Assembly: GCF_012927455.1 (NCBI RefSeq)
Contig: NZ_JABBPE010000015.1
Location: 310,001 to 374,000 of the forward strand
DNA: 64,000 nucleotides
From: Polaromonas sp.
GTDB taxonomy: Bacteria; Pseudomonadota; Gammaproteobacteria; Burkholderiales; Burkholderiaceae_C
Reading direction: 5' to 3'
Positions 2,241 through 57,583 of this stretch are shown piece after piece (the first letter of the stretch is position 1; the number at the start of each line of letters is the position of its first letter). The position numbers were made by a program, and so were the translations under genes. A model generated the notes under the pieces. That model worked only from the letters and a program-made list of their open reading frames with translations. It was not told the DNA's origin and ran no database searches.

Positions 2241-4406
2241 ATGGTTGAAATAGAACTCGACGGCCAGAAAGTGGAAGTGCTAGAAGGCAGCACGGTAATG
2301 CACGCTGCTGAAAAAGCCGGCACTTACATTCCTCATTTTTGCTACCACAAGAAGCTCAGCATCGCGGCCAACTGCCGCATGTGTCTGGTCGATGTGGAAA
2401 AGGCGCCCAAGCCGATGCCGGCTTGCGCCACGCCGGTCACGCAGGGCATGATCGTGCACACCAAGAACGACAAAGCCATCAAGGCCCAGAAGGGAGTGAT
2501 GGAGTTCTTGCTGATCAACCACCCGCTCGATTGCCCGATTTGCGATCAGGGCGGCGAGTGCCAGCTGCAGGATTTAGCCGTAGGCTACGGTGCCGGCGAA
2601 TCCCGCTACGAAGAAGAAAAACGCGTGGTGTTCCATAAAGATGTGGGCCCGCTGATCTCCATGCAGGAGATGAGCCGATGCATCCACTGCACCCGCTGTG
2701 TGCGCTTTGGTCAGGAAATGGCCGGCGTGATGGAGCTCGGCATGTCGCATCGCGGCGAGCACGCGGAAATTGAAACCTTCGTTGGCATGTCGGTGGACTC
2801 CGAGCTGTCGGGCAACATGATTGATCTTTGCCCGGTAGGCGCGCTGACCAGCAAGCCTTTTCGCTACAGCGCCCGCACCTGGGAACTGTCGCGCCGCAAG
2901 TCGGTTAGCCCGCACGACTCCACCGGTGCCAACCTGATTGTTCAGGTCAAGTCCAACAAGGTCATGCGTGTCGTTCCGCTGGAAAACGAAGACGTCAACG
3001 AATGCTGGATCGCCGACCGCGACCGCTTTTCTTATGAAGCCCTGAACAGTGATGAGCGCCTGACCAGTCCCATGATCAAACAGGGGGGCGAGTGGCAAAC
3101 CGTCGATTGGCAAACCGCGCTGGAATATGTGGCCAATGGCCTCAAGCAGATCAAGAGCGAACACGGTGCAGCCAGTATTGGTACGCTGGCCAGCCCGCAC
3201 AGCACGCTGGAAGAGCTGTATTTGGCCGCGTCTTTGATGCGCGGACTGGGCAGCGAAAACATCGACTACCGCTTGCGCAACGCCGAATTTTCGCCTGTCG
3301 CGTCGGTGCACTGGCTGGGTACTTCGATTGCCTCGCTGTCGCAGTTGCAACGCGCGCTGGTGGTGGGTTCCAACCTGCGCAAGGATCATCCGCTGTTTGC
3401 GCAACGCATTCGGCAGTCAGTCCGCAAGGGATGCGCGCTCAATGCTATCAATTCAGTAGCTGAGCTGGCTGCTCCGGATGCCTGGGCCATGCCGGTCGCC
3501 AACGCGCTGACGACAGCGCCTGATGCCTGGGCCCAGGCCCTGGCTGATGTGGCCTCGGTAATCGCGACAGAGAAGGGCGTTTCCGCACCGGCCGCTGGTC
3601 AGGCCACGGCCACCGCCCAGGCCATCGCCAAGTCCATGCTCGGCGGCGAGCGAAAGGCCATCTTGCTGGGTAATGCCGCAGCGCACCACGTCAATGCCTC
3701 CAGCCTGCTGGCCTTGGCGCAGTGGATTGGCGCGCAAACCGGCGCCACGGTGGGCTATCTGACCGAAGCGGCCAACACCGTCGGTGCGCAACTGGCCGGT
3801 GCCATGCCAGGCAGCCAAGGCCTTCATGCCGGCCAGATGCTGAAGGGCCAACTCAAAGCCGTCTTCCTGCTGAATAACGAGCCGGAATTTGACTCGGCTT
3901 CGGGTGCCAGCGCCATGGCTGCGCTGAATGCCGTCCAGATGGTTGTCACGTTGAGCCCTTTCAAGGCCAACATGAGTATCAGTGATGTGCTGTTGCCGAT
4001 TGCCCCTTTCACGGAGACCTCCGGTACTTTTGTCAACGCCGAAGGGCGGGTGCAGGGCTTTCATGCAGTCGTAAAACCTTTGGGGGACACCCGTCCGGCC
4101 TGGAAGGTGTTGCGCGTGTTGGCCAATCTGCTGGGTCTGCCCGGCTTTGAGTTTGAATCTTCGCAGGATGTGCTCAAGCAGATTGCCGATGTTGACGCAA
4201 GCCAAATGTCTGCAGATCGCTTGAATCAGCAGCAGGGCAGTGCAAGCCCGGCCCGCATCACCGTGTCAGCCAGTGCCGGCGCGGCGCCTGCCGTTGCCAG
4301 CATTTACCAGCTCGACAGTCTGGTGCGGCGAGCCACATCGCTGCAGTTGACCGCAGATGCCCGGCAGGCCCATGCCAGTCAAAGCCTCGAAGGAGCCGGC
4401 GCATGA
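2241..4406 (+). CDS. nuoG: NADH-quinone oxidoreductase subunit G (75-kDa Fe-S protein)
   Basis: 721 aa, clearly shorter than the 908-aa E. coli protein but, as I recall, normal for betaproteobacteria. An N-terminal ferredoxin domain holds N1b (C34, C45, C48, C62), then the HxxxCxxCxxxxxC motif (H94, C98, C101, C107), then a [4Fe-4S] set C147, C150, C153 and C197, followed by a molybdopterin-oxidoreductase-like domain that needs no molybdenum in complex I. The extra N7 cysteine motif of E. coli NuoG is not seen. Residues about 402-411 are encoded by a degenerate copy of repeat family A. The stop overlaps the nuoH start by 4 bases. Confidence 0.96.
3444..3472 (+). repeat. Family A repeat, degenerate copy inside nuoG
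   Basis: GCTATCAATTCAGTAGCTGA then GCTGGCTGC. Only the first arm is clear. Read in frame as [11 protein letters not shown]. Confidence 0.6.
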
Positions 4407-5482
4407 TTGAGGCAGTTTACGGCTTTGGCCAAGGCTTGATGGGCGGCGTCTGGCCGGGTACGGTCTGGCCCGTCTTGTGGGCGTTGATCAAGATCGTTTG
4501 CCTTCTGGCGCCGTTGATGGGCTGTGTGGCCTACCTGACGCTGTGGGAGCGCAAGGCGATCGGTTTTACGCAGATCCGTTTGGGCCCCAACCGGGTGGGT
4601 CCGCTGGGATTGTTGCAACCGATTGCCGACGCGCTCAAGCTGCTGACCAAGGAAATCATCATCCCCACGGCCGCAAGCAAAGGGCTGTTTGTGCTCGGTC
4701 CCGTCATGACCATCATGCCGGCGCTGGCGGCGTGGGCGGTGGTGCCCTTTGGTCCCGATATCGCGCTGGCCAACATTAACGCTGGCCTGTTGTTCCTGAT
4801 GGCCATCACGTCGATGGAGGTGTATGGCGTCATCATTGCAGGCTGGGCATCGAACTCCAAGTACGCTTTTCTGGGCGCGATGCGGGCTTCGGCCCAGATG
4901 GTGAGTTACGAAATTGCCATGGGCTTTTGCCTGGTGGTGGTGCTCATGGTATCTGCCAGTCTGAACATGACCGACATTGTGCTGGGTCAGGGAAAAGGCA
5001 TGGCTGCGGACAGGGGGTTGACCTTCCTGTCCTGGAACTGGCTACCTTTGTTCCCCATTTTCGTGGTGTACTTTATTTCGAGTCTGGCCGAGACCAACCG
5101 CCACCCGTTTGACGTGGTTGAGGGCGAGTCCGAAATTGTGGCGGGCCATATGGTCGAGTACTCCGGCATGGCCTTTGCCATGTTCTTTCTGGCCGAGTAC
5201 GCCAACATGATTCTGGTCTCGGTGTTGTGCGTCATCCTTTTTCTGGGTGGCTGGTTGTCCCCGATTGACAGTGTCTTCTTCAACTGGATTCCGGGCTGGA
5301 TCTGGCTGGGCATCAAGGCGTTTGTGGTGGTCACGATGTTCTTGTGGGTACGGGCAACTTTCCCGCGTTTTCGTTATGACCAGATCATGCGTCTGGGCTG
5401 GAAGATATTCATACCTGTGACCCTGGTCTGGCTGGTGGTCGTCGGGGCCTGGATGCAGACCCCTTACAACATCTGGAAGTGA
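4403..5482 (+). CDS. nuoH: NADH-quinone oxidoreductase subunit H (membrane, quinone site)
   Basis: 359 aa multi-spanning membrane protein that joins the peripheral arm of complex I to the proton-pumping arm and shapes the quinone entry channel. The conserved first loop is seen as [20 protein letters not shown] near residues 49-68, and the acidic loop [20 protein letters not shown] near 229-248. The hydrophobic profile fits eight membrane helices. ATG overlaps the nuoG stop. It is followed by 118 bp containing a family B palindromic repeat, an unusual gap for an otherwise tight operon. Confidence 0.97.
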
Positions 5483-5487
5483 ATATG

Positions 5488-5582
5488 AGCCCCCACGCTT
5501 GTTGCTTCGCGTACTACGCTGCCCCCCGAGGGGGCGCATTTTTCCTTGGGGCGGCCCTGCGGAAAAACATCGGCTCACACGC
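5488..5582 (+). repeat. Family B palindromic repeat, copy 1 (between nuoH and nuoI)
   Basis: Begins with GAGCCCCCACGCTTG, includes CTTCGCGTACTACGCTG, then the palindrome CCCCCCGAGGGGG and a tail rich in GGGCGGCC. The same module is found at 41546-41640 (same orientation) and 58370-58452 (opposite orientation). The palindrome can fold in the polycistronic nuo message. nuoI keeps its own AGGAA ribosome site just downstream. Confidence 0.85.
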
Positions 5583-13665: not shown

Positions 13666-13721
13666 GGCGCGCTTGGGGTCTGCTGCCCATTTACCTGCGT
13701 CTGGCCAAACGCCGCCAAGAC

Positions 13722-13770
13722 GCTATTAATTTGATAGCTACTAACGCACGTATATAAAGGGCTGTAGGAC
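13722..13770 (+). repeat. Family A repeat copy
   Basis: Reads GCTATTAATTTGATAGCTAC, then an ACGCACGTATATAAAGGGCT arm. Matches the family A plan: a GCTAT/ATAGC hairpin followed by a second GCCC/GGGC-like arm. Confidence 0.75.
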
Positions 13771-13881
13771 TTTTATACCTGAAAGACGGCTGTCGTTGGG
13801 GGCGCAAGATCAGCCAATCAACAGCTCACCGGTCCAGCCGACAAGGCGTGAAACGACCATTCCTCAGCATTAAAACGGCTG

Positions 13882-13925
13882 CCAGCCCAATAGATACGGG
13901 CGCTAGCAGCTATTAAAACAGGAGT
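13882..13925 (-). repeat. Family A repeat copy
   Basis: On the + strand it reads CAGCCCAATAGATACGGGCG followed by CTAGCAGCTATTAAAACAGG, the reverse orientation of family A. Confidence 0.8.
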
Positions 13926-13987
13926 AGGTGGTTTGCTGCCTCGATGCCGCCCGTCGATAGAGCCGGGCAGCACCGATCCGATCAAGC

Positions 13988-16966: not shown

Positions 16967-17484
16967 ACAAATCACTCCTACGAAGTTGAGGCAAGAATGC
17001 CAAAACGCAGCCGATATGGGAACGAAGCGGCACCGCTGTGATGCCACGACAAGCGGTCATCGCAGATTAGGAGGGCGAGATGTCAGTCGCGTGACTTGTG
17101 TGGAGCGAGGAGGATGATGGCTGGGCATTTGAGACCAACGCCAGTGGGTGTCGGCTTGTCGCTGAAAGACAGCCTCCTGCGGGAGGCGCGCGTGCAGAAA
17201 GTGCCGTTGCAAGTGGCACGCTGCCAGCAAGGCGTGGCGCGTTATAAATTACCAAAAATTACAAGAAGCGCAGCTGCCAAGTGCGTGAAAAAACAGATTT
17301 CCTCAAGACGTCGCTGATGCACTTGGCCCACCTCAGCCGAACCCGTCACCGCTGCCGATGTAAATTCCAGCGGTTTTCAAGCAGGCTTACATGCTATAAA
17401 AGTGATAGCTACTAACGCCTTCAGGAAGCCGGCCCCGGCGAAAAGAGCTTGAAACTCTCAGCAGCGCCGGTGATCGAGGCTTCG
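16967..17484. other. Intergenic region, no gene recognised
   Basis: About 520 bp upstream of the phosphoesterase gene. It must hold the leftward promoter. No convincing open frame is seen on either strand. A half copy of repeat family A lies at 17392-17419. Confidence 0.5.
17392..17419 (+). repeat. Family A repeat, half copy
   Basis: TGCTATAAAAGTGATAGCTA then CTAACGCC. Only the first hairpin of the family is kept. Confidence 0.65.
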
Positions 17485-18773: not shown

Positions 18774-20576
18774 TCAGGCGTTGAACTGCAGTGCCGCCAG
18801 CCGCGCGTAAATGCCGCCCTGGCGCACCAGCTCGGCGTGGTTGCCTTCTTCCACCAGCCGGCCGTGGTCCAGCACCAGGATGCGGTCGGCTTGCTGCACG
18901 GTCGCCAGCCTGTGGGCAATCACCAGCGTGGTGCGGCCTTTCATGGCCGACTCCAGCGCCGCCTGCACCATGCGTTCGCTCTCGGCGTCCAGCGCGCTGG
19001 TGGCTTCGTCCAGCAGCAGCAGCGGCGGGTTTTTCAGCATCGCCCGCGCAATCGCAATGCGCTGGCGCTGGCCACCCGACAGGCGTACGCCGCGCTCGCC
19101 CAGAAAAGTGGCGTAGCCCTCGGGCAGAGCGGTGATGAACTCGTGCGCAAACGCCGCTTGTGCCGCAGCCTTCACTTCCTCGTCACTGGCGCCAGGCTTG
19201 CCGTAGCGGATGTTTTCCAGCGCGCTGGTCGAGAAAATCACCGCGTCCTGCGGCACGATGCCTATGCGCTGGCGCAAGTCGGTCAGCGCCATTTCGCGCG
19301 TAGTAACGCCGTCCAGCTCGATGCGGCCAGCGGCCGGATCGTAAAAGCGCAGCAGCAGCTGAAACACCGTGCTCTTGCCGGCACCGCTAGGGCCCACAAT
19401 CGCGACAGTTTCACCGGGCGCCACGCGCATGCTGAAATTGCTCAACGCGGCTTGCGCCGGGCGCGATGGGTAGTGAAACGTCACTGCTTCTAAATCGATA
19501 GCGCTTCCCGCCCGTATGACGGGGGCTACAGCCGGATTTGAGGGTGAAACTACAGGCGAGCGGCTGCCCAGCAGCTCCATCAGCCTTTCGGTGGCGCCGG
19601 CCGCCCGCAGCAAGTCACCGTACACCTCGCCCAGCACCGCAAACGCGCTCGCCAGAATAATCACGTAAACCACCGTCTGCCCCAGGTGACCGGCCGTGAT
19701 GTCGCCGCGCATGACCGCCTGCGTGCCCTGGTACAGCCCCCACAGCAGCGCACCCGACGTGGCAATGATGATGAAGGCCACCAGCACCGAACGCGCCCGC
19801 GTGCGCCGCACCGCTACCTTGAAGGCGCTGCCTGTCGACAGGTCAAAGCGGGCAGACTCGCGCGCCTCGGCGGTATAGCTTTGCACCACCGGAATGGCGT
19901 TCAGCACTTCGGCGGCAATCGCGCTGGAGTCGGCCACTCGGTCCTGGCTGGCGCGCGACAGCTTTCGCACGCGCCGCCCAAACCACAGGCTGGGCAGCAC
20001 GATCAGCACCAAAATCCCCAGCACCTGCACCATCACATAAGGGTTGGTCCAGACCAGCATGGCCAGCGCGCCCACGCCCATCACCGCGTTACGCAGGCCC
20101 ATGCTCAGCGACGAGCCCACAACCGCCTGCACCAGCGTGGTGTCCGTCGTCAGGCGCGACAGCACCTCGCCGGTCTGCGTCGTTTCAAAAAACTCCGGGC
20201 TCTGCTTGAGCACATGCGCATACACCGCGTTGCGCAGGTCAGCGGTCACCCGCTCGCCGAGCCAGCTCACCAGATAAAACCGGCCCGCCGAAAAAAGGCC
20301 CAACGCCACCGCCACCGCAAACAACGTCACAAAGTGCTCGCGCAGCGCCATCAGCTGCGTGCCCTTGGCCGCGTCGCTGCCACCCCCGGCTGTAACTCCG
20401 CTAACCAGCCCGCCATCAATCAGGCTGCGCAAGGCCAGCGGGAAAATCAGCGTGGCCACTGCCGCCAGCACCAGAAACAGAATGGCCAGCGCAATGCGGC
20501 CCCGGTAAGGCCGCAAAAACGGCAGCAGCCCCGAAAGAGACTTGGGGCTTTGGGCTTTGGCGCGATCAGTGGGCAT
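18774..20576 (-). CDS. MsbA-like ABC exporter, fused permease and ATPase
   Basis: 600 aa half transporter. Six membrane helices occupy about residues 15-330, then the ATPase: Walker [10 protein letters not shown] near 392, signature LSGGQRQR near 498, Walker [13 protein letters not shown] near 517 and the switch His in VIAHRL. It belongs to the lipid/drug exporter branch, close to the MsbA-related family; the substrate is not known. A degenerate family A repeat encodes part of the linker between the two domains (about residues 347-364, [15 protein letters not shown]). Confidence 0.9.
19485..19535 (+). repeat. Family A repeat copy inside the ABC exporter gene
   Basis: TGCTTCTAAATCGATAGCGC, CCGCCCGTATGACGGGGGCT, ACAGCC. 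Degenerate but with both arms. In frame in the linker between membrane and ATPase domains. Confidence 0.65.
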
Positions 20577-20647
20577 GGAGGGGAGGGTAGGGTTGCGTGG
20601 AGCGAAGAACGAACAGCCCGATTTTGGCTGTTTAGGGTGTAAAAATG

Positions 20648-20692
20648 CCTGTAGCCCTTAAAGGACGGGTGCAAGAAGCTATCAAATAAGGA
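20648..20692 (-). repeat. Family A repeat copy
   Basis: CTGTAGCCCTTAAAGGACGG then GTGCAAGAAGCTATCAAATA. Well conserved, reverse orientation. Confidence 0.85.
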
Positions 20693-20918
20693 GCAACCAA
20701 AAGGGTGATTGAAGGGTGATAAGAAACATCATTGAAAGAGCCGGGAGTGCGCGGCGCCGGCGGTTTTTCACGAACAGCGGGGGGAATTGGGTCCAGTCAT
20801 TATGAAAGAAACAGCCGCTGACTCGCGGGTTTGCCAATGGGGGGCGCAACCGCGGCCATACCAGTTCACTCGAAGCCCGAGGTTCAGCTGCCTCAGTTGT
20901 CCCAAGTCTCCCAGGTAG

Positions 20919-20944: not shown

Positions 20945-21058
20945 ATCGGTGATCGCGTCCTGGCGCTGCCGGCTAAGCGAAGTAGTCGCCCAGCAAAGCC
21001 CAACACAAGTTACTTTTGGAACGGCGCGCAGCTACAGCTAAAGTGGAAAATAGGGCAG

Positions 21059-21104
21059 TTAGCCCAAGTAGAACGTGCGCAAGCAGCTATAAAAAGAATA
21101 GCAA
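21059..21104 (-). repeat. Family A repeat copy
   Basis: TTAGCCCAAGTAGAACGTGC then GCAAGCAGCTATAAAAAGAA and TAGC. Both arms present. Confidence 0.75.
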
Positions 21105-21583
21105 AAATGTGGCTTATGGCGCTACTCCATCAACGCATTCAGCGGGCTTGTTGTGCCGGCAGACACCGCCAGATTTCTGTTTTTGGCCGAGCCCATCCAT
21201 CACACCCCAGCCGTGCTGCGGCGCGTTTGCGCGGCAGTCTCAGGCGGGCCAGGGTGCCAGCGCAACGTCTGTCAATCGCCATGCGGCTCATGCAGATCGC
21301 TCCGGTGAAGGGCTCTACCCAAAAAATGACCCGCCTGCCTGTGCCGGCTCAGCTTTGGCTTGCTAACGGCGCAGGCACCAATCCATAATTGGTTTGGTCA
21401 ATAGGGCTTGAAGATTTCAATCCCCGTATCGACTGCCTCGCCGGGGTTCAGCCCAACAAGGTTTATCTTCCGCAGAAGGCAATCGATGATTTACGAAAAC
21501 TTAGCGCGGCGGCAGATATACGCTGATTGCAGGGCGTCAGTACACTGCAAGCCAGTGCAGAGGCTATATGGAGGTGCCCAATC

Positions 21584-24059: not shown

Positions 24060-25674
24060 ACCCAATACCCTTGCCGGCCTGGCAGACGTTCAAGAAGTCC
24101 AAAACGTTCAAATTGCCGCGCTTGGGTACAGCCCCAAGCCGCTGCCGATGTGGCGCGCCTCGTTCCGCATGGCTCTCGTTGCGGCTGCCGGTCTGGCGGC
24201 TGCGGGGCTGATGGCCACTGGCCTCAGCGGCTGTGCTGACATGTCGGGCATCAGCCCGAAGGCCAGCCTGCGCGATGGCGCTTCGCTGGGCTTGGCGGCC
24301 CCGTCTGCGGCGTCTGCTTCTTCTTCCGTTAACGCCCAGGCGCCGGTCGCTGCCGAATGGTGGCGCGATTTCGGCGACGAGCCGCTTAATGCGCTGGTGG
24401 CCCAGGCGTTGCAGGCCAACCCCAGTCTGAAGCTGGCACAGGCGCGGCTGGCCCGCGCGCAAGCTGTCACCGAAGTGGCTGATGCGGCCACCCGGCCGCA
24501 GCTCAATGGCCAGCTTGACCTGACGCGCCAGCGCTACACTGCCAATGGCGCGGTACCGCCGCCGCTGGCCGGCGCCATCCGCGAAAGCGGCACGGCGCAG
24601 CTCAGCGCCAGCTGGGAGCTTGATTTCTTCGGCAAAAACCGCGCTGCACTCGATGCCGCCCTGGGCAGCGTCAAAGCCGCCGAGGCCGATGCGCAGGCGG
24701 CGCGCCTGCTGCTGGCCAGCAACGTGACGCGCAGCTACTTTCAGCTGGTACGGCTGAACGAACAGGCTGGCGTTGCGCGCCGCACCCTGGCGCAGCGCAC
24801 CGAGGCGCTCAAGCTGGTGCAAGACCGTGTCAACGCGGGGCTGGATACGCGGCTGGAACTGCGCCAAAGCGAAGGCGGTCTGCCCGAGGCGCGCCTGCAA
24901 CTCGAAACCGTGCAAGAACAGCTGGCGCTCACGCGGAACGCGCTGGCCGCCCTGATTGGGAAGCCAAACAGTGCTGTAGCCCAGGTGGTACCTGCGCAAG
25001 AAGCTATTAAAAACGTAGCAGTGGCGGCGAATATCCCCGCCGACCTGCTGGGCCGCCGCGCCGACATTGCAGCCGCGCGTTGGCGCGTCGAAGCCTCGTC
25101 CAAGGATGTGGTCAATGCCAAAACGCAGTTTTACCCCAACATCAATTTGGTCGCCTTCGCCGGTTTTTCCAGCATAGGCCTGGGCCGCTTGCTTGACGCG
25201 GGCAGCCAGCAGTGGGGCGTCGGCCCGGCGCTGCGCCTGCCGATTTTTGATGCGGGCCGGCTGCGCGCCAATTTGCGCGGCAAAACCGCCGACCTGGATG
25301 CCGCAGTCGAAAGCTACAACGCCGCGGTGATTGACGCGGTGCGCGATGTGGCCGACCAAGTGGCTTCCTCGCAAGCGATAGCCCGCCAGCAGACCGAGCA
25401 GCGCGCCGCACAGGAATCTGCAGAGGGCGCTTATGAAATCGCCGTGCAGCGCTACAAGGCCGGACTGGGCACTTATCTGAATGTGCTGACGGCCGAGACC
25501 AGCGTGCTGGCGCAGCGCCGCCTGGCGGTTGACCTGGCGGGCCGTGCGCTGGATACGCAGGTCGCGCTGATACGAGCGCTCGGTGGCGGCTACGCGCCTG
25601 AATCCAGCGCAGCGCAAACTTCGGCGCGGTCTGAAAATGCTATCAAAATAATAGCTGCTGGCGCCCGTCCTTAA
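24049..25674 (+). CDS. NodT-family outer-membrane efflux lipoprotein
   Basis: 541 aa. TolC-like channel for the EmrAB-type pump. A lipoprotein signal ends in LSGC (C62), and the two OEP repeats follow, with WWRDFGDEPLNALV at about 104 and DLLGRRADIAAARWRVEA near 330-347. From the ATG at 24049 there are 33 residues before the signal helix; the ATG at 24148 (MWRASFRM) may be the true start. A family A repeat encodes about residues 309-324 (AVAQVVPAQEAIKNVAV) and another encodes the last 12 residues (NAIKIIAAGARP). Confidence 0.9.
   Translation: MKNKPNTLAGLADVQEVQNVQIAALGYSPKPLPMWRASFRMALVAAAGLAAAGLMATGLSGCADMSGISPKASLRDGASLGLAAPSAASASSSVNAQAPVAAEWWRDFGDEPLNALVAQALQANPSLKLAQARLARAQAVTEVADAATRPQLNGQLDLTRQRYTANGAVPPPLAGAIRESGTAQLSASWELDFFGKNRAALDAALGSVKAAEADAQAARLLLASNVTRSYFQLVRLNEQAGVARRTLAQRTEALKLVQDRVNAGLDTRLELRQSEGGLPEARLQLETVQEQLALTRNALAALIGKPNSAVAQVVPAQEAIKNVAVAANIPADLLGRRADIAAARWRVEASSKDVVNAKTQFYPNINLVAFAGFSSIGLGRLLDAGSQQWGVGPALRLPIFDAGRLRANLRGKTADLDAAVESYNAAVIDAVRDVADQVASSQAIARQQTEQRAAQESAEGAYEIAVQRYKAGLGTYLNVLTAETSVLAQRRLAVDLAGRALDTQVALIRALGGGYAPESSAAQTSARSENAIKIIAAGARP
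24973..25021 (-). repeat. Family A repeat copy inside the NodT-type gene
   Basis: CTGTAGCCCAGGTGGTACCT then GCGCAAGAAGCTATTAAAAA and CGTAGC. In frame, in a variable loop before DLLGRR. Confidence 0.8.
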
Positions 25675-25690
25675 TGGGCTAGAGACCTAT
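25639..25690 (+). repeat. Family A repeat copy over the NodT-type stop codon
   Basis: GCTATCAAAATAATAGCTGC then TGGCGCCCGTCCTTAATGGG and CTAGAG. Very close to consensus. Supplies the last codons and the stop of the channel gene. Confidence 0.92.
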
Positions 25691-25758
25691 TTATCCCATA
25701 AATGGGCGCTGCACCCGTTGCACCCGCTATGGCGCAAGCCACCAATCAATCAAACACC

Positions 25759-35444: not shown

Positions 35445-38045
35445 CTACCAGTCTTCCTTCACCGCCAGCACCGCATCCTTGCCCGCCGCCGCGCGCCCGG
35501 CCAGCCAGGCGGTCAGGGTGCCGGCCACCATCACAGCGGCGCACAGTGCCAACAGGCGAAGCCAAGGCACCTGCAGGTCCATGGTCCAGTGAAAGCTTTG
35601 TGGATTGACCACATGCACCAGCACCGCGGAAACGGCCAAACCCAGGCCCAGGCCGGCCAAAGCGCCTATCACCGTCCAGGCCGCGCCTTCACCCGCCACC
35701 ACGCTGAGGATCTGCCGCCGCGTCAGGCCCAGGTGCGCCAACAAGCCAAATTCCTTGCGGCGCGCCAGCACCTGCGCGCTGAAACTGGCGGCCACGCCAA
35801 ACAGCCCAATCGCAATCGCCACGCCCTGCAGCCAGTAGGTCACGGCAAAGCTGCGGTCAAAAATTTTCAGGGAGTTGGCACGTATCTGGCTGACCGAGGC
35901 CATCTCCAGCAGCGCACCGCCGCCCGACTGCTGTTCGGCCAGGCCGCGTATCGCTTGTTGCACCTGGGCATCCGGGGCAGTGCCGTTCAGCCACAGCGCC
36001 AGATCGTTGACGCGCTGGTCGCCGGTCAGCTGTTCAAAGTCGCGTTGCGCGATGGTGATGGCACCAAACTGGCGGGCATAGTCGCGCCACACCCCGGCGA
36101 CGAAAAACACCGGGGCTGATGTTGGGTTGCTCTGTGCTATCAAATCAGGAGCTGCTTGCGCCCTTCCTGATTGGGCTAGAGCACTAAAAGCTTGTGAAAT
36201 TGGTTGAAAAACGCTGCCCGGCCGGGCGCCATACAGATCCACCATTGCTTCGCTGACGTAGATGGCGACGTGGCCCGGTGGCACGGGCAGCGCAGCGCCG
36301 ACCAGCGGCAGGGAATTGGCCGGGTCATCGATGGGGCGTGCAATCAGCGTGACAGCTGGTTTTTCAGGGTCCAACAGCAACTGCGTGCTGCGCAAACCGC
36401 TTACGCGCGCCACACCCGGCACGCCGCTTAACGCTTTGACAAACTCGGGCGAAAAATACGCCGTGTCGCTGGCCGCGCTGCCCAGCGCGGTGCGCACGTA
36501 CAGGTCGGCGGGCAGCACCACGTCGAGCCAATGCGTGACTGAATCGCGAAAACTTGCCACCATCACGGTCAGCGCCACGGCCAGACTCAGCGATGCCACC
36601 ACGCCGCTGACGGCGACTGCCGCGCTTTCGCGCACCCTGCGCGCGCGCTCCACCGCCAGCAGAGGCAGCAGACGCTGCGCGACCCAGGGGCTGAGCCGGT
36701 CGTACAGCAGCGCAATCAGCCAGGGCAGCGCCGTGATGCCGCCCACCAACAGCAGCCCGACTGCCAAATAAGCCGCCAGCGGGATGCCAAATACCGGCGG
36801 AAGCAGCGCCAGCAGGGCGCCAGCAGCTATCAAAACAATACTAAGCCAGCGCGCCGTAGCGGCGCCCGTGGCCAGGCCCAAGCCTTTGAGGGTTTGCGCA
36901 GGTGGCAGCTTTTGCGCCGCCCGCGCCGGCCACCAGCCGCCGACGCCCGCTGCCGCCACACCTAGCGCGCCATACGTCAACGCAGACCAACCACTCCACT
37001 GCAGCGTAGGCGCGACGCCAGCAAAGTAGCCGCCGCCCAGGTCACCGCCGAGCAGTCGAAGCGCCAGCGCCGCCAGCGCGGTTCCCAGCGCAATGCCGGC
37101 CACACTGCCGATCAGCCCCAGCCCAAGCGATTCGATCAGCACCAGTTGCAGCCGCTCGCGCCCGGTCAGGCCCAGCACGCCGAGCAGCGCAAACTGCTGC
37201 GCCCGCTTGGCCACGCTGAGCGACAGCACCGAAAACACCAGGAACGCGCCAGTGAAGAGCGCCACCAGCGCCAGCACCGTGAGGTTGACGCGGTAGGCGC
37301 GCGACAGGTTGCTGACGCGCTCGGCCGCATCGCCGGGCGCGCTGGCGCTGATATTGGGCGGCAGTTGCAGCGCGGCAATGAAGCTGCGCGCATCGCTGCC
37401 GGGCTTGAGCCGCACATCTATGCGCGACAGTTCGCCAGCCTTGCCAAACAGCTCCTGCACGGCTGCAATGTCCATCACGGCGAGCGGGCCGCCGCCTGCG
37501 CTCACCGTGCCGGCGACCGTCACGGGGAGCAGTTGCAGACCGCTTTGCAGGCGCAGCTTGGGCGCAGTGAGCAACTGCCGGGCGGCCGGGTTCAGAAACA
37601 CCGTGCCGGGCGCAAAGATCGCCAGGCGATCGCTGGTAGCAGCCGGAACCGGCATCAGCGCCGGCGCAATAGACGCCACCGCCAGCACATCGACGCCTAT
37701 GATGCGCAGCGGCTGGCGTGCTGGCTGTTCAATTGGTGAAGACTGGTCGGTCAGCGCGTACGTCGAGATTTCAAGCACCGGGCTGGCGAGCGCAACCAGC
37801 GGGTGATTGGCCACGCGTGCATACACCGCTTCGTCAAAGTTGCCTTGCACGGCGCGCAGTTCCAGATCGGGCTGGCCGTTAACGGCGCGCACCGCCTGCG
37901 AAAACTCGCTGAGTGCCGACGCGTTGATCAGCTGCACCGAAAACGCCAGTGCCACGCCCAGCATCACGGCCACCACGGCGGCAGCGTTGCGCCAGGGGTG
38001 ATGGCGAAGCTCTTGCCAGGAAAAAGTACGGAGTAGAGCGCGCAT
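35445..38045 (-). CDS. FtsX-family ABC transporter permease (8-10 helices)
   Basis: 866 aa. Membrane helix near residue 20 (NAAAVVAVMLGVALAFSVQL), a large periplasmic domain, then FtsX domains near residues 260-400 and 740-860 with LFTGAFLVFSVLSLSVAKRA and LGLTRRQILSVVAGEGAAWT. MacB/LolE-like mechanotransmission; it likely extracts or inserts lipids with the LolD-like ATPase at 39919-40566 and the AttH-like protein. A family A repeat is in frame at about residues 620-637 (ALAQSGRAQAAPDLIAQ) and a half copy near residue 402. Confidence 0.88.
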   Translation of the reverse strand: MRALLRTFSWQELRHHPWRNAAAVVAVMLGVALAFSVQLINASALSEFSQAVRAVNGQPDLELRAVQGNFDEAVYARVANHPLVALASPVLEISTYALTDQSSPIEQPARQPLRIIGVDVLAVASIAPALMPVPAATSDRLAIFAPGTVFLNPAARQLLTAPKLRLQSGLQLLPVTVAGTVSAGGGPLAVMDIAAVQELFGKAGELSRIDVRLKPGSDARSFIAALQLPPNISASAPGDAAERVSNLSRAYRVNLTVLALVALFTGAFLVFSVLSLSVAKRAQQFALLGVLGLTGRERLQLVLIESLGLGLIGSVAGIALGTALAALALRLLGGDLGGGYFAGVAPTLQWSGWSALTYGALGVAAAGVGGWWPARAAQKLPPAQTLKGLGLATGAATARWLSIVLIAAGALLALLPPVFGIPLAAYLAVGLLLVGGITALPWLIALLYDRLSPWVAQRLLPLLAVERARRVRESAAVAVSGVVASLSLAVALTVMVASFRDSVTHWLDVVLPADLYVRTALGSAASDTAYFSPEFVKALSGVPGVARVSGLRSTQLLLDPEKPAVTLIARPIDDPANSLPLVGAALPVPPGHVAIYVSEAMVDLYGARPGSVFQPISQAFSALAQSGRAQAAPDLIAQSNPTSAPVFFVAGVWRDYARQFGAITIAQRDFEQLTGDQRVNDLALWLNGTAPDAQVQQAIRGLAEQQSGGGALLEMASVSQIRANSLKIFDRSFAVTYWLQGVAIAIGLFGVAASFSAQVLARRKEFGLLAHLGLTRRQILSVVAGEGAAWTVIGALAGLGLGLAVSAVLVHVVNPQSFHWTMDLQVPWLRLLALCAAVMVAGTLTAWLAGRAAAGKDAVLAVKEDW
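36136..36185 (+). repeat. Family A repeat copy inside the permease gene
   Basis: GCTATCAAATCAGGAGCTGC then TTGCGCCCTTCCTGATTGGG and CTAGAGC. Well conserved. In frame in the second periplasmic region. Confidence 0.88.
36820..36843 (+). repeat. Family A repeat, half copy inside the permease gene
   Basis: CCAGCAGCTATCAAAACAAT ACTA. Only the first arm is kept; the second arm is missing. Confidence 0.5.
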
Positions 38046-40566: not shown

Positions 40567-41666
40567 GGCCAGGCCTCGACTTGCGCCTTCACCCGCGCCA
40601 GCACCTGCTGCAGCGCGCTTGGGTCGTCGCAGGCCACCACACACCGCTGGGGCATCGAGCGCAGCCAGGTGATCTGGCGTTTGGCGAGCTGGCGCGTGGC
40701 AAAAATGCCTTTGTCTCGCAGCTCGTTCAGTTCTTTCGGAAGGAGATTACCGCGCGCTCCGCCCGCCTCGTGCGCGTCTAGTAGTTCCCAGGCCTGGCGG
40801 TAGCCGACGCAGCGCATGGATGGCAGATCGGGCGTTAAATCACCGCGTGCGCGCAAGGCTTTGACTTCGTCGATGAAGCCCGCCGCCAGCATGGCGTCAA
40901 AACGCTCGGCGATGCGGCCGTGGAGCCATGCGCGGTCCGCCGGTTCTAGGGAAATAAGAGCTGTAGCCCTTTTTTCATGGGCGCAAGAAGCTATGCTTTT
41001 TATAGCATTACGCTGGTGAAAGAATGCCAGCGGCTGGCCCGACAGCCGGTACACCTCGAGCGCGCGCGAGATGCGCTGCGCGTCGTTGGGCGCCAGCCGG
41101 TTGGCCGTCACCGGGTCCACTTGCGCCAGCTCCTCGTGCAGCGCTGGCCAGCCCTTGGCTACAGCTTCACTGGCCAGCAGCGCACGCACGGCAGGGTCGG
41201 CCTTGGGCATGTCGTCCAGCCCGTCAAACAGCGCCTTGAAATACAGCATGGTGCCGCCCACCAGCAACGGCAGCTTGCCGCGCGCGTGGATATCCTCAAT
41301 CAACCGCGTGGCATCGGCGACAAATTCGGCGGCGCTGTAGGCGTTGAGCGGGTCGCGAATGTCAATCAGATGGTGCGGCACGGCGGCCAGTTCGTCGTCC
41401 GCAGGTTTGGCTGTACCGATGTCCATGCTGCGGTAGACCAGCGCTGAATCGACGCTGATGATTTCCACCGGGTAGTGCTGCGCAATGGCCAGGGCGGCTG
41501 CGGTTTTTCCCGCCGCGGTCGGGCCGGCCAGCGCAAGGTATCTGGCCCCCACGCTTGCCGCTTCGCGTGCAGCGCTGCCCCGCGGGGGGGCTGTTTTACC
41601 TTGGGGCGGCCCGGCGGTGAAGCTGGCCCCCTCTCGTGCTTGGTCAGGATTTTGCGGGGGCGTCAT
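40563..41666 (-). CDS. miaA: tRNA dimethylallyltransferase MiaA
   Basis: 367 aa. It adds the isopentenyl group to A37 of tRNAs reading U-starting codons. P-loop GPTAAGKT follows residue 40, then [18 protein letters not shown] and [12 protein letters not shown]. The start at 41666 has GGAG 9 bases upstream. Two repeats enter the protein: family B supplies most of residues 10-40 before the P-loop ([20 protein letters not shown]) and family A supplies about residues 220-236 ([20 protein letters not shown]). The gene overlaps the Bcr/CflA gene at its 5' end and the ATPase gene at its 3' end. Confidence 0.94.
40958..41008 (-). repeat. Family A repeat copy inside miaA
   Basis: GAGCTGTAGCCCTTTTTTCA then TGGGCGCAAGAAGCTATGCT and TTTTATAGCATT. 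Both arms present. Read in frame within a loop of MiaA. Confidence 0.9.
41546..41640 (+). repeat. Family B palindromic repeat, copy 2 (inside miaA)
   Basis: CCCCCACGCTTGCCGCTTCG, GTGCAGCGCTGCCCCGCGGG and TTACCTTGGGGCGGCCCGGC. Same module as at 5488-5582. It lies in the 5' end of miaA and is translated in frame as a Gly/Pro/Ala-rich extension. Confidence 0.85.
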
Positions 41667-43903: not shown

Positions 43904-45844
43904 TCATCGCCCGCGCATAAACAGGCTGTCGAGTTCCCTGATGCTGACCTGCCGCCAGGTGGGCCGTCCGTGGTTGCACTGGTCGGAGCGCTCGGTCGCT
44001 TCCATCTGGCGCAGTAGGGCGTTCATTTCGTCTAGCGTGAGTTTTCGGTTGGCGCGCACAGCGCCGTGGCAGGCCATGGTTGACAGCAACTCGTTTTGCG
44101 CGCGCTGAATCACCGTGCTGGCCTCGTGCTGCGCCAGCTCGGCGAGCACGCTGCGGGCGAGTTCTACCGCGTCGCCCGCCGCCAGACTGGTGGGCACGGC
44201 GCGCACGGCAAGCGTTCTGGGGGAAAAAGGCGTGATCTCAAGACCCAGCGTGTTTAGTGTTTCGGCACTGGCTTCGGCGGTGGCCACTTCCTGCGGGCTG
44301 GCTGCAAAGGTGGCCGGAATCAGCAGCGGCTGGCTGGCGATACGGCCTGCACCCGTGCTGCCTGGGCTGTTTGAGGTGTCGAGCTGGCTTTTTAGCCGCT
44401 CATAGACGATGCGCTCGTGGGCGGCATGCATGTCGACGATGACCAGGCCCTGCGTGTTTTCGGCCAATACGTAGATGCCTTGCAGCTGGGCGATGGCGCG
44501 GCCCAGTGGCCAATCGCCTGCGGGAAGAGTGCTCGTAGGGTTTGAAACGGCATTGGCAGTTGCTGCTGAAATCGGGGCAAAGTTATCCGGCGAAGGGGTG
44601 ACCGCCGCCGAGGCCACGGCGCCGCCAGGCGTGGGCCACATGGCCTCAAAGTCGGACGCACGGCTGCCCCGGTTTGCTCCGAAATTGATAGCTGGTTGCG
44701 CCCATACCTGTTGGGCGTAGGCCCTATTTGTCTCCAAAAAAGCATTGGTGACAGTGCTGGTGCCTTCTTCGGGCACCTGCGCTGCCAAGCCGGCGCGTGG
44801 TGCGGCCAGCGCGTCTTCTGTGGCATGGCGCACCGCCTGATGCACCTCGCGGCTGTCGCGAAAGCGCACCTCGATTTTGGTGGGGTGCACGTTCACGTCG
44901 ACCCGGGCCGGGTCCATCTCTATGTAGAGTGCATAGACCGGCTGGCGCTGGCCATGCAGCACGTCTTCGTAGGCGCTGCGCGCGGCGTGCGAGAGCACCT
45001 TGTCGCGCACGAAGCGGCCGTTGACATAGGCAAACTGCTGGTCGGCGCGCGAGCGCGCAGCGCTTGGCGTGCCGGCGCGGCCCCAAACCCGCACGGCAGG
45101 CCGGCCATCTGCGCGGCGCGCCGAGCTTTCATGGAAGATGGCGACCGACTGCGCTACAAACTCACTGCCCAGCACGTCGGCCAAGCGCTGCAGCTGAGCC
45201 AGTTCAGGCGCCAGTTCCTTGCCGCAGGCGCGCCACTGCTCGACCAGCTTGCCCTCGTGCCAGATGGCAAAGCCCACATCGGGCCGCACCAGCGCATGGC
45301 GGCGCACTGCTTCTATGCAGTGCGCCAGTTCGGTGGCGTCGGTCTTTAAAAATTTGCGCCTGGCCGGTGTGGCGTAAAACAGCTCGCGCACTTCCACGCT
45401 GGTGCCCTGATGGCGCGCCACCGGCTTCAGCTCGCCAGTGCGGCCATCGAGCTGCCAGGCATGCTCGGCATCCCCGGTTCTGGACAGCACACTCATGTCG
45501 GCAATCGAGTTGATGGCGGCCAGCGCCTCGCCTCTAAAGCCCATGGTGCCCACGGCCTCCAGGTCTTGCAGCGAGGCAATTTTGCTGGTGGCATGGCGCC
45601 GCAAGGCGACCGGCAACTCCTCGCGCGGAATGCCCTGGCCATCGTCTTCCACCAGAATCAGCCGCACGCCGCCGGCCGACAGCCGCACCGTCACCTGGCT
45701 GGCGCCCGCGTCCAGCGCGTTGTCCACCAGTTCACGCACCACGGAGGCGGGCCGCTCAACCACTTCGCCCGCTGCAATCTGGCTGATCAGTTCGTCGGGA
45801 AGGTCGCGAATGGGGCGGCGCGGGGCCTGGGTCTGGGAGTTCAT
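43904..45844 (-). CDS. mutL: DNA mismatch repair protein MutL
   Basis: 646 aa. The N-terminal GHKL ATPase motifs are ELVDNALDAGA (motif I), DDGQGI, HATSKI and GFRGEALA. It couples MutS to the downstream endonuclease and helicase. The ATPase half covers about residues 15-345 and the C-terminal dimerisation half about 450-646, joined by a linker. A family A repeat encodes about residues 373-388 of this linker (AYAQQVWAQPAINFGA). First gene of the leftward cluster leading to miaA, the same mutL-miaA linkage as in E. coli. Confidence 0.96.
   Translation of the reverse strand: MNSQTQAPRRPIRDLPDELISQIAAGEVVERPASVVRELVDNALDAGASQVTVRLSAGGVRLILVEDDGQGIPREELPVALRRHATSKIASLQDLEAVGTMGFRGEALAAINSIADMSVLSRTGDAEHAWQLDGRTGELKPVARHQGTSVEVRELFYATPARRKFLKTDATELAHCIEAVRRHALVRPDVGFAIWHEGKLVEQWRACGKELAPELAQLQRLADVLGSEFVAQSVAIFHESSARRADGRPAVRVWGRAGTPSAARSRADQQFAYVNGRFVRDKVLSHAARSAYEDVLHGQRQPVYALYIEMDPARVDVNVHPTKIEVRFRDSREVHQAVRHATEDALAAPRAGLAAQVPEEGTSTVTNAFLETNRAYAQQVWAQPAINFGANRGSRASDFEAMWPTPGGAVASAAVTPSPDNFAPISAATANAVSNPTSTLPAGDWPLGRAIAQLQGIYVLAENTQGLVIVDMHAAHERIVYERLKSQLDTSNSPGSTGAGRIASQPLLIPATFAASPQEVATAEASAETLNTLGLEITPFSPRTLAVRAVPTSLAAGDAVELARSVLAELAQHEASTVIQRAQNELLSTMACHGAVRANRKLTLDEMNALLRQMEATERSDQCNHGRPTWRQVSIRELDSLFMRGR
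44682..44725 (+). repeat. Family A repeat copy inside mutL
   Basis: AAATTGATAGCTGGTTGCGC then CCATACCTGTTGGGCGTAGG and CCCT. In frame in the interdomain linker. Confidence 0.8.
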
Positions 45845-52050: not shown

Positions 52051-52089
52051 ATCAGTAGCGCAGTAAATCTCAATAATCCCCAATGAAAT

Positions 52090-52142
52090 AAGCCCGTAGC
52101 CCATGAGGGACGGGTGCGGGTAGCTATGCTATTTATAGCAAA
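52090..52142 (-). repeat. Family A repeat copy
   Basis: AAGCCCGTAGCCCATGAGGG then ACGGGTGCGGGTAGCTATGC and TATTTATAGCA. Between the convergent queG and AEC transporter genes. Confidence 0.85.
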
Positions 52143-52186
52143 ATTTGAGCGAGCCGGGTTAACCTGGGTGACTTGCTACCGACCAG

Positions 52187-53205: not shown

Positions 53206-54186
53206 ATGCAACGTCGCTTTCTGTTTGCCCTGTCTGCCTTGTCTGCGCTGGCTTTGACTGCCGCTGCGGGCTCTGCCTTGGCGCAGGCCTATCCCAGCAA
53301 GGTCATCAAGCTCCAGGTGCCGTTTGCGCCTGGCGGCACCACCGACATTGTGGCCCGCGTGGTTGCCGACCCACTGGGCAAGGCGCTGGGCCAGACGGTT
53401 GTCGTTGAGAACAAGGCTGGCGGCGGCGGCGTGGTCGGTGCACTGGAGACTTCCCGGGCGGCGCCCGATGGGTACACGCTGGGCGTGGCGACGGTGTCCA
53501 CTACCGCGTCCAACCCGGCCATCAATCCAAAGATTCCGTACAACACGCTGACGGATTTCACGCCCATCATCAACATCGCAGCGACCCCCAACGTGATCGC
53601 GGTGAACCCCAGCTTCCCGGCCCGCAACTACAAGGAGTTTGTCGCTGAGCTCAAAAAGAACCCGGGAAAATACTCATTTGGCTCATCGGGCACAGGCAGC
53701 ATCGCGCACCTGCAGATGGAGCTATACAAGAGCCTGAGCGGCACCTTCATTACCCACATACCGTACCGGGGCTCCGGTCCGGCATTAAACGACGCGGTGG
53801 CGGGCCAGATCCCAATTATTTTTGACAACCTGCCTTCGGCGCTGCCCTTCATCCAGCAAAAGCGCCTGATTGCCATAGCGGTGGCGGCACCCGAACGCCT
53901 GGCCGTGCTGCCCGACGTGCCCACCTTCAAGGAGGTCGGGCTGGAGCCTGTGAACCGGATGGCGTATTACGGCATTCTGGGCCCCAAGGGCTTGCCGAAA
54001 GAGGTGGTTGACAAGGTCAGCGCCGGCGTGAAAAAGTCGTTGGAGGATCCGGCAGTTCGCAAACGCATTGAAGACACCGGCTCGCTCGTCATTGGCAATA
54101 CGCCCGATCAGTTTGCCGCGCAGATCAAGGCAGAGTTCGAGGTGTACAAGAAGGTGGTCGAATCGGCCAAGCTCAAGCTCGAATAA
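53206..54186 (+). CDS. Bug/TctC-family periplasmic solute-binding protein
   Basis: 326 aa. Signal peptide [20 protein letters not shown] ends near SALAQA. The Bug pattern shows [20 protein letters not shown], a long [14 protein letters not shown], and [19 protein letters not shown] with [13 protein letters not shown]. The carboxylate-binding loop matches the family. The partner TctA/TctB genes are absent, which is usual for Bug paralogues. AAGGA lies 8 bases before the ATG at 53206; the longer frame has no site. Confidence 0.93.
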
Positions 54187-54215
54187 GCGCAGCGGTTTTT
54201 CCTTCTGTTTTGTTG

Positions 54216-54254
54216 CGTCCCGGCAGGCTTTGGCTTGTCGGGACGTTTTTTTTG
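54216..54254 (+). terminator. Intrinsic terminator
   Basis: CGTCCCG stem with CGGGACG and a partly paired inner GCAGGC/GCTTGT, then a run of eight T. It ends the TctC-type gene. Confidence 0.88.
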
Positions 54255-54274
54255 CCAATTTGAAGGATATATTG

Positions 54275-54325
54275 GCCTATAGCCCAATGAATACGGGCGT
54301 AAGCTGCTATTGTATTTATAGCAAA
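54275..54325 (-). repeat. Family A repeat copy
   Basis: CCTATAGCCCAATGAATACG then GGCGTAAGCTGCTATTGTAT and TTATAGC. Both arms present. Confidence 0.85.
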
Positions 54326-54441
54326 TTCAGTCTTCTTCATAGCCTTCGGGATCGGGCAAACCTGCAGACGGTCCTACCGACTCGGGAACCCATGCTCACC
54401 GTGACCCATGCCGCATTGCCTTTTTTGTTATCGTCCAAGCC

Positions 54442-55344: not shown

Positions 55345-55379
55345 CTCGCTTGCCCCGGCCTGAAAAGCCCGGCACTACT

Positions 55380-56654: not shown

Positions 56655-56761
56655 GGGCAAACTCCTTTTCGGTGACTGCTTTTTATTTTACAGTCTAGCG
56701 CCCGTTAACCATTTTCGCCAGTGCCCCCTCATATGGCCAAAGCCGGATTAAACCCGGAGCT

Positions 56762-57583
56762 TTAGGCGTCAGCGCCCAGCAGCGCCAACTCGGCTTCGTC
56801 AAAGCCGGCCAGGCGGCGCGCTTGCAGGTTCAGTGGGCCCTTCAGCCGCGGTGCGCCGTATTGTTGGGCCAGCTTTGCATAAGTGGCCAGCGGGTCCAGC
56901 GCGCGCTGGGCGCACAGCAGGCGGTACCAGTGGTTGCCAATGGCGACATGGCCAATTTCGTCACGCAGGATGATGTCCAGAATCGCCACCGCACGCAGCG
57001 CATGGTGCGTTCCTACCTTGCGCAGTTTGGCCTGCATGGGCGGCGTCGCGTCCAGGCCCCTGGCCTCCAGCGTGCGCGGCACCAGCGCCATGCGTGCCAG
57101 CAAGTCGCCTTCGGTTTTCTGCGTCATGTCCCACAAGCCGGTGTGGGCCGCAAAGTCGCCGTAGTCGTAGCCCATGCTTTGCAGCTCGGCGCGCAATAAA
57201 CTGAAGTGCCTGGCCTCTTCGGCAGCCACTTTCAGCCAGTCCAGGTAGTAGGCAGGCGGCATGCCGGCGAAGCGCCAGACCGCGTCCAGCGCCAGGTTGA
57301 TCGCATTGAACTCGATGTGCGTCACCGCGTGCAGCAGGGCGGCCAAGCCTTCGGGCGTGAAGGGCGAGCGCTTGGGGAGGTCCAGGTGCGAGCGCAATTG
57401 CGGCCGCGCCGGGCAGCCGGGTAGGCCAGCGGGTGCCACCAGATGCAGCTGGGGTGCTATCAAAATAGTAGCTTCTTGCGCCCATAGATACTGGGCTAGA
57501 AGCACTTTTTGTAGTGGATTTGGCTCCAGTAGCGCCTGCAGGGCGCGCTGGCGCAGTTCGGCGGAGGGTGGGGTGGCCGTCAT
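56762..57583 (-). CDS. DUF455 ferritin-like protein
   Basis: 273 aa, DUF455 family with a diiron ferritin-like fold. Possible metal ligands are in HVTHIEFNAINLALDAV, KVAAEEARHFSLLRAELQSM and ILRDEIGHVAIGNHWY (E/H pairs). A family A repeat encodes about residues 26-43 near the N terminus (LLAQYLWAQEATILIA). The role is unknown; these proteins resemble ferritin-like hydroxylases. Confidence 0.85.
   Translation of the reverse strand: MTATPPSAELRQRALQALLEPNPLQKVLLAQYLWAQEATILIAPQLHLVAPAGLPGCPARPQLRSHLDLPKRSPFTPEGLAALLHAVTHIEFNAINLALDAVWRFAGMPPAYYLDWLKVAAEEARHFSLLRAELQSMGYDYGDFAAHTGLWDMTQKTEGDLLARMALVPRTLEARGLDATPPMQAKLRKVGTHHALRAVAILDIILRDEIGHVAIGNHWYRLLCAQRALDPLATYAKLAQQYGAPRLKGPLNLQARRLAGFDEAELALLGADA
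57455..57505 (+). repeat. Family A repeat copy inside the DUF455 gene
   Basis: GCTATCAAAATAGTAGCTTC then TTGCGCCCATAGATACTGGG and CTAGAAGC. Nearly the full consensus. In frame close to the N terminus. Confidence 0.92.

Follow-up and report, generated by a model that had tools for sequence, protein, structure and literature searches.

A long dispersed motif of Polaromonas, spelled differently from species to species, is a candidate DNA-uptake signal

Results

The motif in the window

The window analysed here is a 64,000-nucleotide stretch of a Polaromonas genome (G000, 4.47 Mb), bases 310001-374000 of contig C12; the nuoG of this genome is most similar to Polaromonas. The window carries a dispersed motif of about 52-65 bp that contains the inverted repeat GCTAT-N7-ATAGC; the consensus is TGCTATTAATTTAATAGCTGCTTGCGCCCGTACTTATTGGGCTAGAGGCCTA, followed by an A/T-rich tail that reaches about 65 bp. 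A preliminary description of this DNA took the copies for palindromic elements of the Rickettsia type, inserted in frame into at least eight genes. The family is indeed dispersed and read in frame. However, most of the coding copies tested occupy pre-existing codons and differ by base changes, and species were found to spell the motif in their own way at nearly all tested sites, altering the protein where needed.

A first nhmmer model, seeded with 14 copies, gave 16 copies in the window at E<0.01. The early models had coding copies among their training set. A second model (ig.hmm) was trained only on 97 intergenic copies of a genome sample of 864 kb, which comprised the window and 40 stretches of 20 kb at positions independent of matches. 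On the window it returned 18 rows at E<=0.01, two of them palindrome self-matches, so both models gave 16 copies, the number in the preliminary description. The 17-base arm matched the window 8 times at up to 3 mismatches, compared with 0.05 expected. The copies and their host genes are as follows.

3436..3462, plus strand: left palindrome only, inside nuoG, doubtful (E=0.0074)
13711..13784, plus strand: intergenic element in a convergent gap (E=7.4e-14)
13866..13927, minus strand: intergenic element in the same convergent gap, inverted relative to 13711-13784, the pair 108 bp apart (E=4.4e-14)
17385..17419, plus strand: partial intergenic copy, left module (E=3.4e-4; 28.8 bits in the first model)
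18774-20576, minus strand: ABC exporter gene
19483..19547, plus strand: degenerate element inside the ABC exporter gene (E=7.2e-7)
20631..20700, minus strand: intergenic element upstream of the exporter gene (E=2.8e-14)
21048..21110, minus strand: intergenic element (E=2.5e-11)
24049-25674, plus strand: NodT-type channel gene (Pfam OEP)
24963..25022, minus strand: element inside the NodT-type gene, antisense (E=3.1e-11)
25629..25703, plus strand: element across the 3' end and stop codon of the NodT-type gene, the best copy of the window (E=1.6e-19 with ig.hmm, 54.4 bits in another model)
35445-37976, minus strand: FtsX-type permease gene (Pfam FtsX)
36132..36200, plus strand: element inside the FtsX-type permease gene (E=5.8e-13)
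36815..36840, minus strand: 26-bp partial copy in the same permease gene, doubtful (E=2.2e-4)
40563-41666, minus strand: miaA gene (TIGR00174)
40947..41012, minus strand: element inside miaA (E=3.4e-11)
43904-45844, minus strand: mutL gene (NF000949)
44668..44740, plus strand: element inside mutL (E=2.5e-12)
52077..52147, minus strand: intergenic element in a convergent gap, with a copy in this gap also in genomes G023, G018, G010 and G024 (E=5.7e-13)
54258..54331, minus strand: intergenic element (E=2.2e-16)
56762-57583, minus strand: DUF455 gene (Pfam DUF455)
57446..57515, plus strand: element inside the DUF455 gene (E=7.3e-14)

Nine copies had been described as lying in frame within genes. 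Seven of these are solid (two in the NodT-type gene and one each in FtsX, MiaA, MutL, DUF455 and the exporter), while the second FtsX copy and the nuoG copy are doubtful; copies are present in six genes, or seven with nuoG, rather than in at least eight. No gene was broken by any copy checked, as had been stated. The nuoG match is a doubtful copy because it consists of the left palindrome only and was ungapped in the 14 orthologues listed of 80 spanning alignments, 10 of which read INS and 4 AINS; the DNA of the site is partly common to some Polaromonas. For the exporter copy, no relative spanning the site was found among the loci compared.

Close pairs of elements, about 80-200 bp apart, were seen at 13711-13927 of the window and on contig C9 of G023. 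Pairs closer than 200 bp numbered 4 in the G000 sample compared with 4.8 expected, that is, about chance.

Copy number and distribution

The sample held 151 non-overlapping copies at E<=1e-4, a density of 0.18 per kb that extrapolates to about 780 per genome. The motif carries 69 bits over 80 columns, and its informative columns span about 55 positions. The intergenic-only model recovered all 33 coding copies of the sample (E<=5.1e-5) and gave zero matches in reversed sequence and in codon-shuffled genes. Left-half matches of at least 12 bits numbered 69, full elements counted in, compared with 1.7 in synonymous shuffles.

The profile scan thus recovered the family across the sample and in relatives, as the preliminary description had proposed. 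Matches at E<=0.001 were found in 76 of 250 genomes and 45 of 126 genera of the GTDB family. Within the genus, 25 genomes including G000 were surveyed and six had no match at this threshold (G005, G007, G013, G017, G021 and G022). No Rfam family reached its gathering score in the window. Plasmid and phage records gave no match at E<=0.01 to a one-copy query, which spellings of other genera could escape, and the 20 kb examined of plasmid pPNAP01 of P. naphthalenivorans CJ2 (PLSDB) held no copy.

Most tested coding copies occupy existing codons

The coding copies were compared with orthologues from four element-free genomes, G005, G022, G017 and G013, which form one clade in an unrooted tree. 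The net length change of the G000 protein was taken over the element plus 12 residues on each side. From the 33 coding copies 10 were left out (N-terminal, poorly conserved or in an unclear gene), and the remaining 23 were 20 hand-picked as alignable together with FtsX, NodT and MutL. The count of 18 genes given below excludes CobU, which has no element-free orthologue, and a DadA-like gene with only 29%-identical orthologues.

In 11 of the 18 genes the median net change was at most one residue (PgeF, DUF455, PrmB, TrpF, the CnoX-type thioredoxin, PurK, NadE, LigA, YggS, CbiX and MnmE), while a whole insertion would contribute 16-18 residues. DUF455 showed zero change in three of four element-free orthologues, which are 36-39% identical over a fragment. 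Four genes (ProA, MutS, AnsB and MiaA) were intermediate or scattered, at -5 to +7 with a 43-residue unrelated MiaA insert of G005 set aside; the MiaA values of -43, +2, -1 and +7 have a median of 0.5 and were classed as scattered, not length-neutral. Three genes were insertion-like at +8 to +23 residues, namely MoeA, DapE and DadA, the last with doubtful orthologues of just 33-40% identity. The NodT site at 24963-25022 showed no change relative to G022 and -1 relative to G005, which is one residue longer there. MutL showed none relative to G005, and was 9 residues shorter in G000 than in G013 and G024.

Codon alignment of PurK reads LPAALSARARAATEAIAAQI in G005 and MPAALSERAFAATKTIANHI in G000, a site rewritten in register. 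At the PgeF site the consensus is matched at 47 of 52 positions in G000 and at 19-22 of 52 in the element-free clade at equal length; G023 has 34 and G018 has 33, part of the shortfall being a matter of species spelling. Recognisable but mostly weak copies (8-34 bits) lie at the identical codons of PgeF, TrpF, PurK, NadE, LigA and YggS in other genera; each gene has one in at least three of the four genomes G148, G140, G166 and G237. At the columns that distinguish species, GCGC is the reading of several of these copies.

The alignment with element-free orthologues that had been suggested therefore went against Rickettsia-type insertion: residues are present at the equivalent sites in most tested genes, 11 of 18 sites are length-neutral, NodT is at 0 and -1, and 3 of 18 are insertion-like.

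In-frame inserts of about 43 residues are present where G000 has the element in the FtsX orthologue of G004 (L233) and the MiaA orthologue of G005 (L229). They differ from one another, one has repeated TASEARQS units, and they look like insertions of other sequence. Their detection shows that the method does see insertions when these are present.

Species spellings

At 23 orthologous gene sites, columns 50-53 of the motif read mostly GGGC in G000, G129, G221 and G004, GCGC in G023 and G018, and GGAC in G010. Column 51 was G at 22 of 23 sites in G000, 16 of 17 in G129, 13 of 15 in G221 and 3 of 3 in G004, and it was C at 22 of 23 in G023 and 18 of 22 in G018. Column 52 was A at 15 of 17 sites in G010. 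The element-free clade was mixed at column 51, with 8 G, 7 C, 2 A and 1 T at 18 sites of G005, for example.

Antisense copies nearly always have column 51 at the third position of a codon, which puts column 52 at a second position. The C-to-G difference at column 51 of these copies was present at 13 of 13 sites in G023, compared with 14.6% of third positions in flanking codons (p 1e-11), and at 11 of 12 in G018, compared with 15.5% (p 1e-8). At column 52 the C-to-T difference of G010, which puts Val for Ala, was found at 9 of 10 antisense sites over a background of 4.2% (p 4e-12). The nine are DapE, FtsX, DUF455, NodT, DadA-like, AnsB, PurK, LigA and MutL, and the exception is PrmB; NadE was omitted from the count, as G000 is without the consensus base there.

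The same spellings were found away from these sites. With the orthologous sites removed, column 51 was G in 96 of 97 intergenic copies of G000 and C in 33 of 42 copies of G023. A model of the left half only, which is blind to the distinguishing columns, was applied to stretches outside the tested sites; it gave C at column 51 in 17 of 19 copies of G018, while in G010 column 52 was A in 5 of 6. Among the sets collected with this model, that of G023 consists mostly of best matches and partly overlaps the orthologous sites, that of G004 is small and overlapping, and that of G000 includes training and coding copies.

Columns 43-48, a short way from the distinguishing ones, were near random among G000 copies (agreement 0.28-0.50, compared with 0.74-0.98 at columns 50-54), so conversion of whole tracts does not explain the uniform spelling. 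Additionally, the motif is nearly limited to the largest replicon in G023. When the best 150 of 2274 candidates were scored, 145 of 146 matches lay on this 4,410,291-bp contig, and the single weak match elsewhere compares with about 27 expected by length (p 5e-12).

Placement and reading frame

Our own simple gene finder placed 795 genes on the sample (88.3% coding). Intergenic DNA held 102 of the 151 copies; another 33 lay wholly and 5 mostly within a gene, so that 38 (25%) were genic in this sense, and 11 overlapped a gene edge. Convergent spacers were the densest, with 31 copies in 14.3 kb, compared with 53 in 55.6 kb of same-strand and 16 in 27.9 kb of divergent spacers. Intergenic copies lay closer to 3' ends (median 44 bp) than to 5' ends (median 144 bp), and same-strand spacers showed no orientation bias (29 and 24 copies).

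By NCBIfam and Pfam, the host genes encode PgeF, a CobU-type kinase, MoeA, DapE, ProA, an L3 glutamine methyltransferase, two D-amino-acid dehydrogenases, TrpF, MutS, a thioredoxin, PurK, NadE, LigA, YggS, CbiX, MnmE, MutL, MiaA, DUF455, FtsX and an outer-membrane efflux protein, with an asparaginase below the model cut-off. The methyltransferase, thioredoxin, asparaginase and efflux protein we take to be those known as PrmB, CnoX, AnsB and NodT, short names that are presumed or carried over from the preliminary description.

The common in-frame peptides described earlier, LAQxxRAQAAIKxIA and AIKxIAACAR, are real: among the 33 copies inside genes one frame was used in 11 of 12 sense and one in 18 of 21 antisense copies. 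It had also been suggested that stops in the other frames fix the frame. Counts of open frames in the 102 intergenic copies were 22, 60 and 0 for the three sense frames and 43, 35 and 0 for the antisense ones. Stops suffice for the sense copies (p 0.13). They do not for the antisense copies, 2 and 18 of which use the frames open 43 and 35 times, so that 18 of 20 lie in the less often open frame (binomial p 3e-5). The antisense preference likely reflects fit to the host protein.

RAYT-like genes and the hairpin

A RAYT partner had been proposed for the family. Two Y1_Tnp (RAYT-like) genes are present in G000.

G000:C15:265857-266186: Y1_Tnp gene L086
G000:C17:588-908: Y1_Tnp gene L087

Y1_Tnp genes were found in 24 of 25 genomes of the genus, all six element-free ones included, and no element match (E<=0.1) was present in the loci of L086 and L087. 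The presence of such genes thus does not follow that of the element, and the proposed partnership fell.

Covariation was absent from stem 1 (451 paired compared with 451.9 in shuffles; 142 and 143.6 in the family set). It was slight in stem 2 (350 compared with 346.6, standard deviation 1.2), with none in the family set (111 and 112.6). A hairpin held by compensatory change is therefore unsupported. A repetitive extragenic palindromic (REP)/RAYT system was likewise set aside: the two Y1_Tnp genes of G000 are without flanking copies, there is no co-occurrence, and there is no clear covariation.

Discussion

A candidate uptake signal

The explanation that we favour, with a confidence of about one half, is that these are copies of one long recognition motif in DNA, about 52-65 bp in length, read by a candidate DNA-uptake step and spread mainly by substitution. 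Something would read the motif and favour chromosomes or fragments that match it; every site would drift to the current spelling, and the sites would move together once the specificity of the reader changed. The best candidate for the reader would be the DNA-uptake step of natural transformation, as with the DNA uptake sequences (DUS) of Neisseriaceae and the uptake signal sequences (USS) of Pasteurellaceae. Matching fragments would be taken up and recombined more often, and better-matching alleles would displace worse ones where the protein or spacer tolerates the replacement, which would also explain why copies are concentrated in spacers and in the neighbourhood of 3' ends. Spread by substitution, orthologous sites, genome-wide species spelling and the bias to the largest replicon of G023 are together how uptake sequences behave. 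The broader proposal is held tentatively, at somewhat under even confidence: Comamonadaceae would carry an unrecognised long two-part putative uptake signal, spelled by species, and a shift of the reader would rewrite several hundred sites and cause parallel amino-acid changes unrelated to function.

Comparison with known systems

The DUS of Neisseriaceae are 10-12 bp long. Rickettsia palindromic elements are repeats read in frame inside genes, and are insertions that add codons; the Polaromonas copies share the in-frame position in genes, but most of those tested add no codons. REP/RAYT systems resemble the family in having a short palindrome-containing repeat and a Y1_Tnp gene in the genome, but differ from it in the three respects for which they were set aside above. 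The Pasteurellaceae study drawn on below is reportedly that of Redfield (2006), and the study of the beta-proteobacterial repeat element (BRE) is said to be that of Hot (2011).

In the available part of the work on Neisseriaceae, DUS dialects are described (Frye 2013, PMC3630211). The likeness is that of a dispersed motif with species spellings on a conserved core, coordinated over the genome, but DUS have a CTG core and a demonstrated uptake role (PMC3630211), while the Polaromonas motif is 52-65 bp long with an inverted repeat and its uptake role is putative. By an equivalent gap test, and as far as the part consulted of the report goes, USS arise by substitution, not insertion (PMC1626085). 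They share with the motif this origin, a preference for non-coding DNA and the lack of orientation bias, but have a 9-bp core, occur about once per kb and are 65% coding in H. influenzae, compared with the 0.18 per kb and 25% genic copies found here (PMC1626085, in part). The family thus has the over-represented dispersed motif, the substitution origin and the dialects on a conserved core of DUS and USS, and lacks their short core of 9-12 bp, being informative over about 55 positions. It was not filed with them because it is far longer and because its uptake role is putative.

BRE repeats are likewise dispersed in Polaromonas and other Comamonadaceae, at times within coding sequence, but they are about 90 bp long with 69% G+C in Bordetella and have 1-29 copies per Comamonadaceae genome (PMC3110155, in part). 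A second, G+C-rich repeat family, GCCCCCACGCTT...CGCTGCCCCCCGAGGGGGCGC, was seen at 5489-5550, 41545-41606 and 58399-58449 of the window. It is also widespread in other Polaromonas, the element-free G005 and G022 included, and it supplies some of the most over-represented 9-mers in the sample. It is possible that this repeat, rather than the motif, is BRE. Overlapping direct repeats at 33251-33442, spaced by multiples of 9 or of 3 bases, have the look of a sequence that encodes collagen-like G-x-x repeats.

A description of the motif was not found among the freely accessible papers listed on repeats and uptake sequences of Comamonadaceae or Polaromonas, nor was a paper there that joins 'DNA uptake sequence' with Comamonadaceae. 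Papers listed as containing short words of the sequence were unrelated by their titles.

Points against an uptake role, and other explanations

Several observations weigh against the uptake explanation. With an inverted repeat and about five times the length of a DUS, the motif is also sparser, at 0.18 copies per kb rather than about 1. All 30 genomes searched for ComEC have it, whether or not they carry the element. The spacing of copies was not clearly evener than random (variance/mean 0.89; coefficient of variation 0.88 compared with 0.99, 8th percentile), and once elements were masked, core words were not in excess among the words ranked highest in coding DNA. The G010 spelling outside orthologous sites comes from 6 copies. 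At DUF455, one of the nine, the Val is shared with G221 and with three element-free relatives and may be no G010 change. Moreover, DapE is 18 to 23 and MoeA 8 to 17 residues longer than in element-free relatives, and FtsX is insertion-like relative to G024 (+14) and G013, though not to G005 (+1). The spacer 54186-54441, which holds the element at 54258..54331, has 255 bp in G000 compared with 67-119 bp in five of six relatives and 1066 bp in the sixth, G005; it is about 140-190 bp longer than in the five, and none of the six has the element there.

In G000 the match to the ComEC domain (C12:394405-395484) is split in two, with about 280 bp between the pieces, inside a single frame of 928 residues; the genus relatives searched have one match each. 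The DNA-uptake channel of G000 may thus contain an in-frame insert.

The possibility was considered that the motif is the binding site of a putative chromosomal protein (nucleoid, segregation or termination), directly selected at each site, with a dialect that follows the protein. The inverted repeat would suit a dimer site, and the confinement to the largest replicon among the best-scored candidates of G023 and the higher density in convergent than in divergent spacers and the closeness to 3' ends, both reported above, are consistent with such a protein. However, this requires useful selection and coordinated change at several hundred sites, codons of housekeeping genes included, and one clade lives without any match. 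We consider it unlikely.

Ectopic patch replacement or gene conversion, by short single-stranded fragments or by Y1/RAYT nicking, could homogenise the copies and overwrite codons without a change of length. The near-perfect PgeF copy of G000 beside the poorer, partly dialectal copies of G023 and G018 is as expected of it, as is a RAYT-type gene in nearly every genome of the genus. However, the loop columns that adjoin the dialect columns have not become uniform, which would restrict tracts to a few bases, and RAYT presence neither tracks the element nor comes with a copy beside the two G000 genes. This, too, is improbable.

A mobile insertion tolerated in loops, of the Rickettsia kind or resembling REP or miniature inverted-repeat transposable elements, would account for the added lengths of DapE, MoeA and FtsX (relative to G024) and for the longer spacer. 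It is in conflict with the length-neutral copies in register, the orthologous sites across genera, the dialects changed in place, the 1 of 146 matches (best 150 of 2274 candidates) off the largest replicon of G023 and the lack of matches to a one-copy query (E<=0.01) in plasmid and phage records. For the tested coding copies it is largely refuted, and as an account of the family it is very unlikely. An artefact of self-trained models or of alignment is scarcely credible: although the first models were trained partly on coding copies, the intergenic-only model recovered every coding copy and nothing in the reversed and shuffled controls, and the dialect rates were compared with those of the flanking codons in each alignment.

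Significance

Selective uptake has been suggested in this family. In the accessible part of PMC4212676, Acidovorax temperans is stated, as data not shown, to have accepted conspecific DNA only. Transformation of V. eiseniae, of the same family as Polaromonas, dropped just about 10-fold with heterologous DNA at up to 1500:1, which the authors take as a sign that DNA is bound selectively ahead of uptake; no uptake motif is named in that part of the paper (PMC4212676). If the uptake explanation is true, the motif would be a candidate for the missing sequence behind this selectivity (PMC4212676, in part), and uptake-type motifs would have a further origin besides Neisseriaceae and Pasteurellaceae. 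The dialects would allow a direct test of whether they impede gene exchange between species. Such a family also shows that a repeat read in frame may not have arisen by insertion, and it would be a clean case of a DNA-level force bending protein sequence. Parallel substitutions in MutL, LigA, PurK, DapE and others could then mislead selection tests, phylogenies and ancestral reconstruction.

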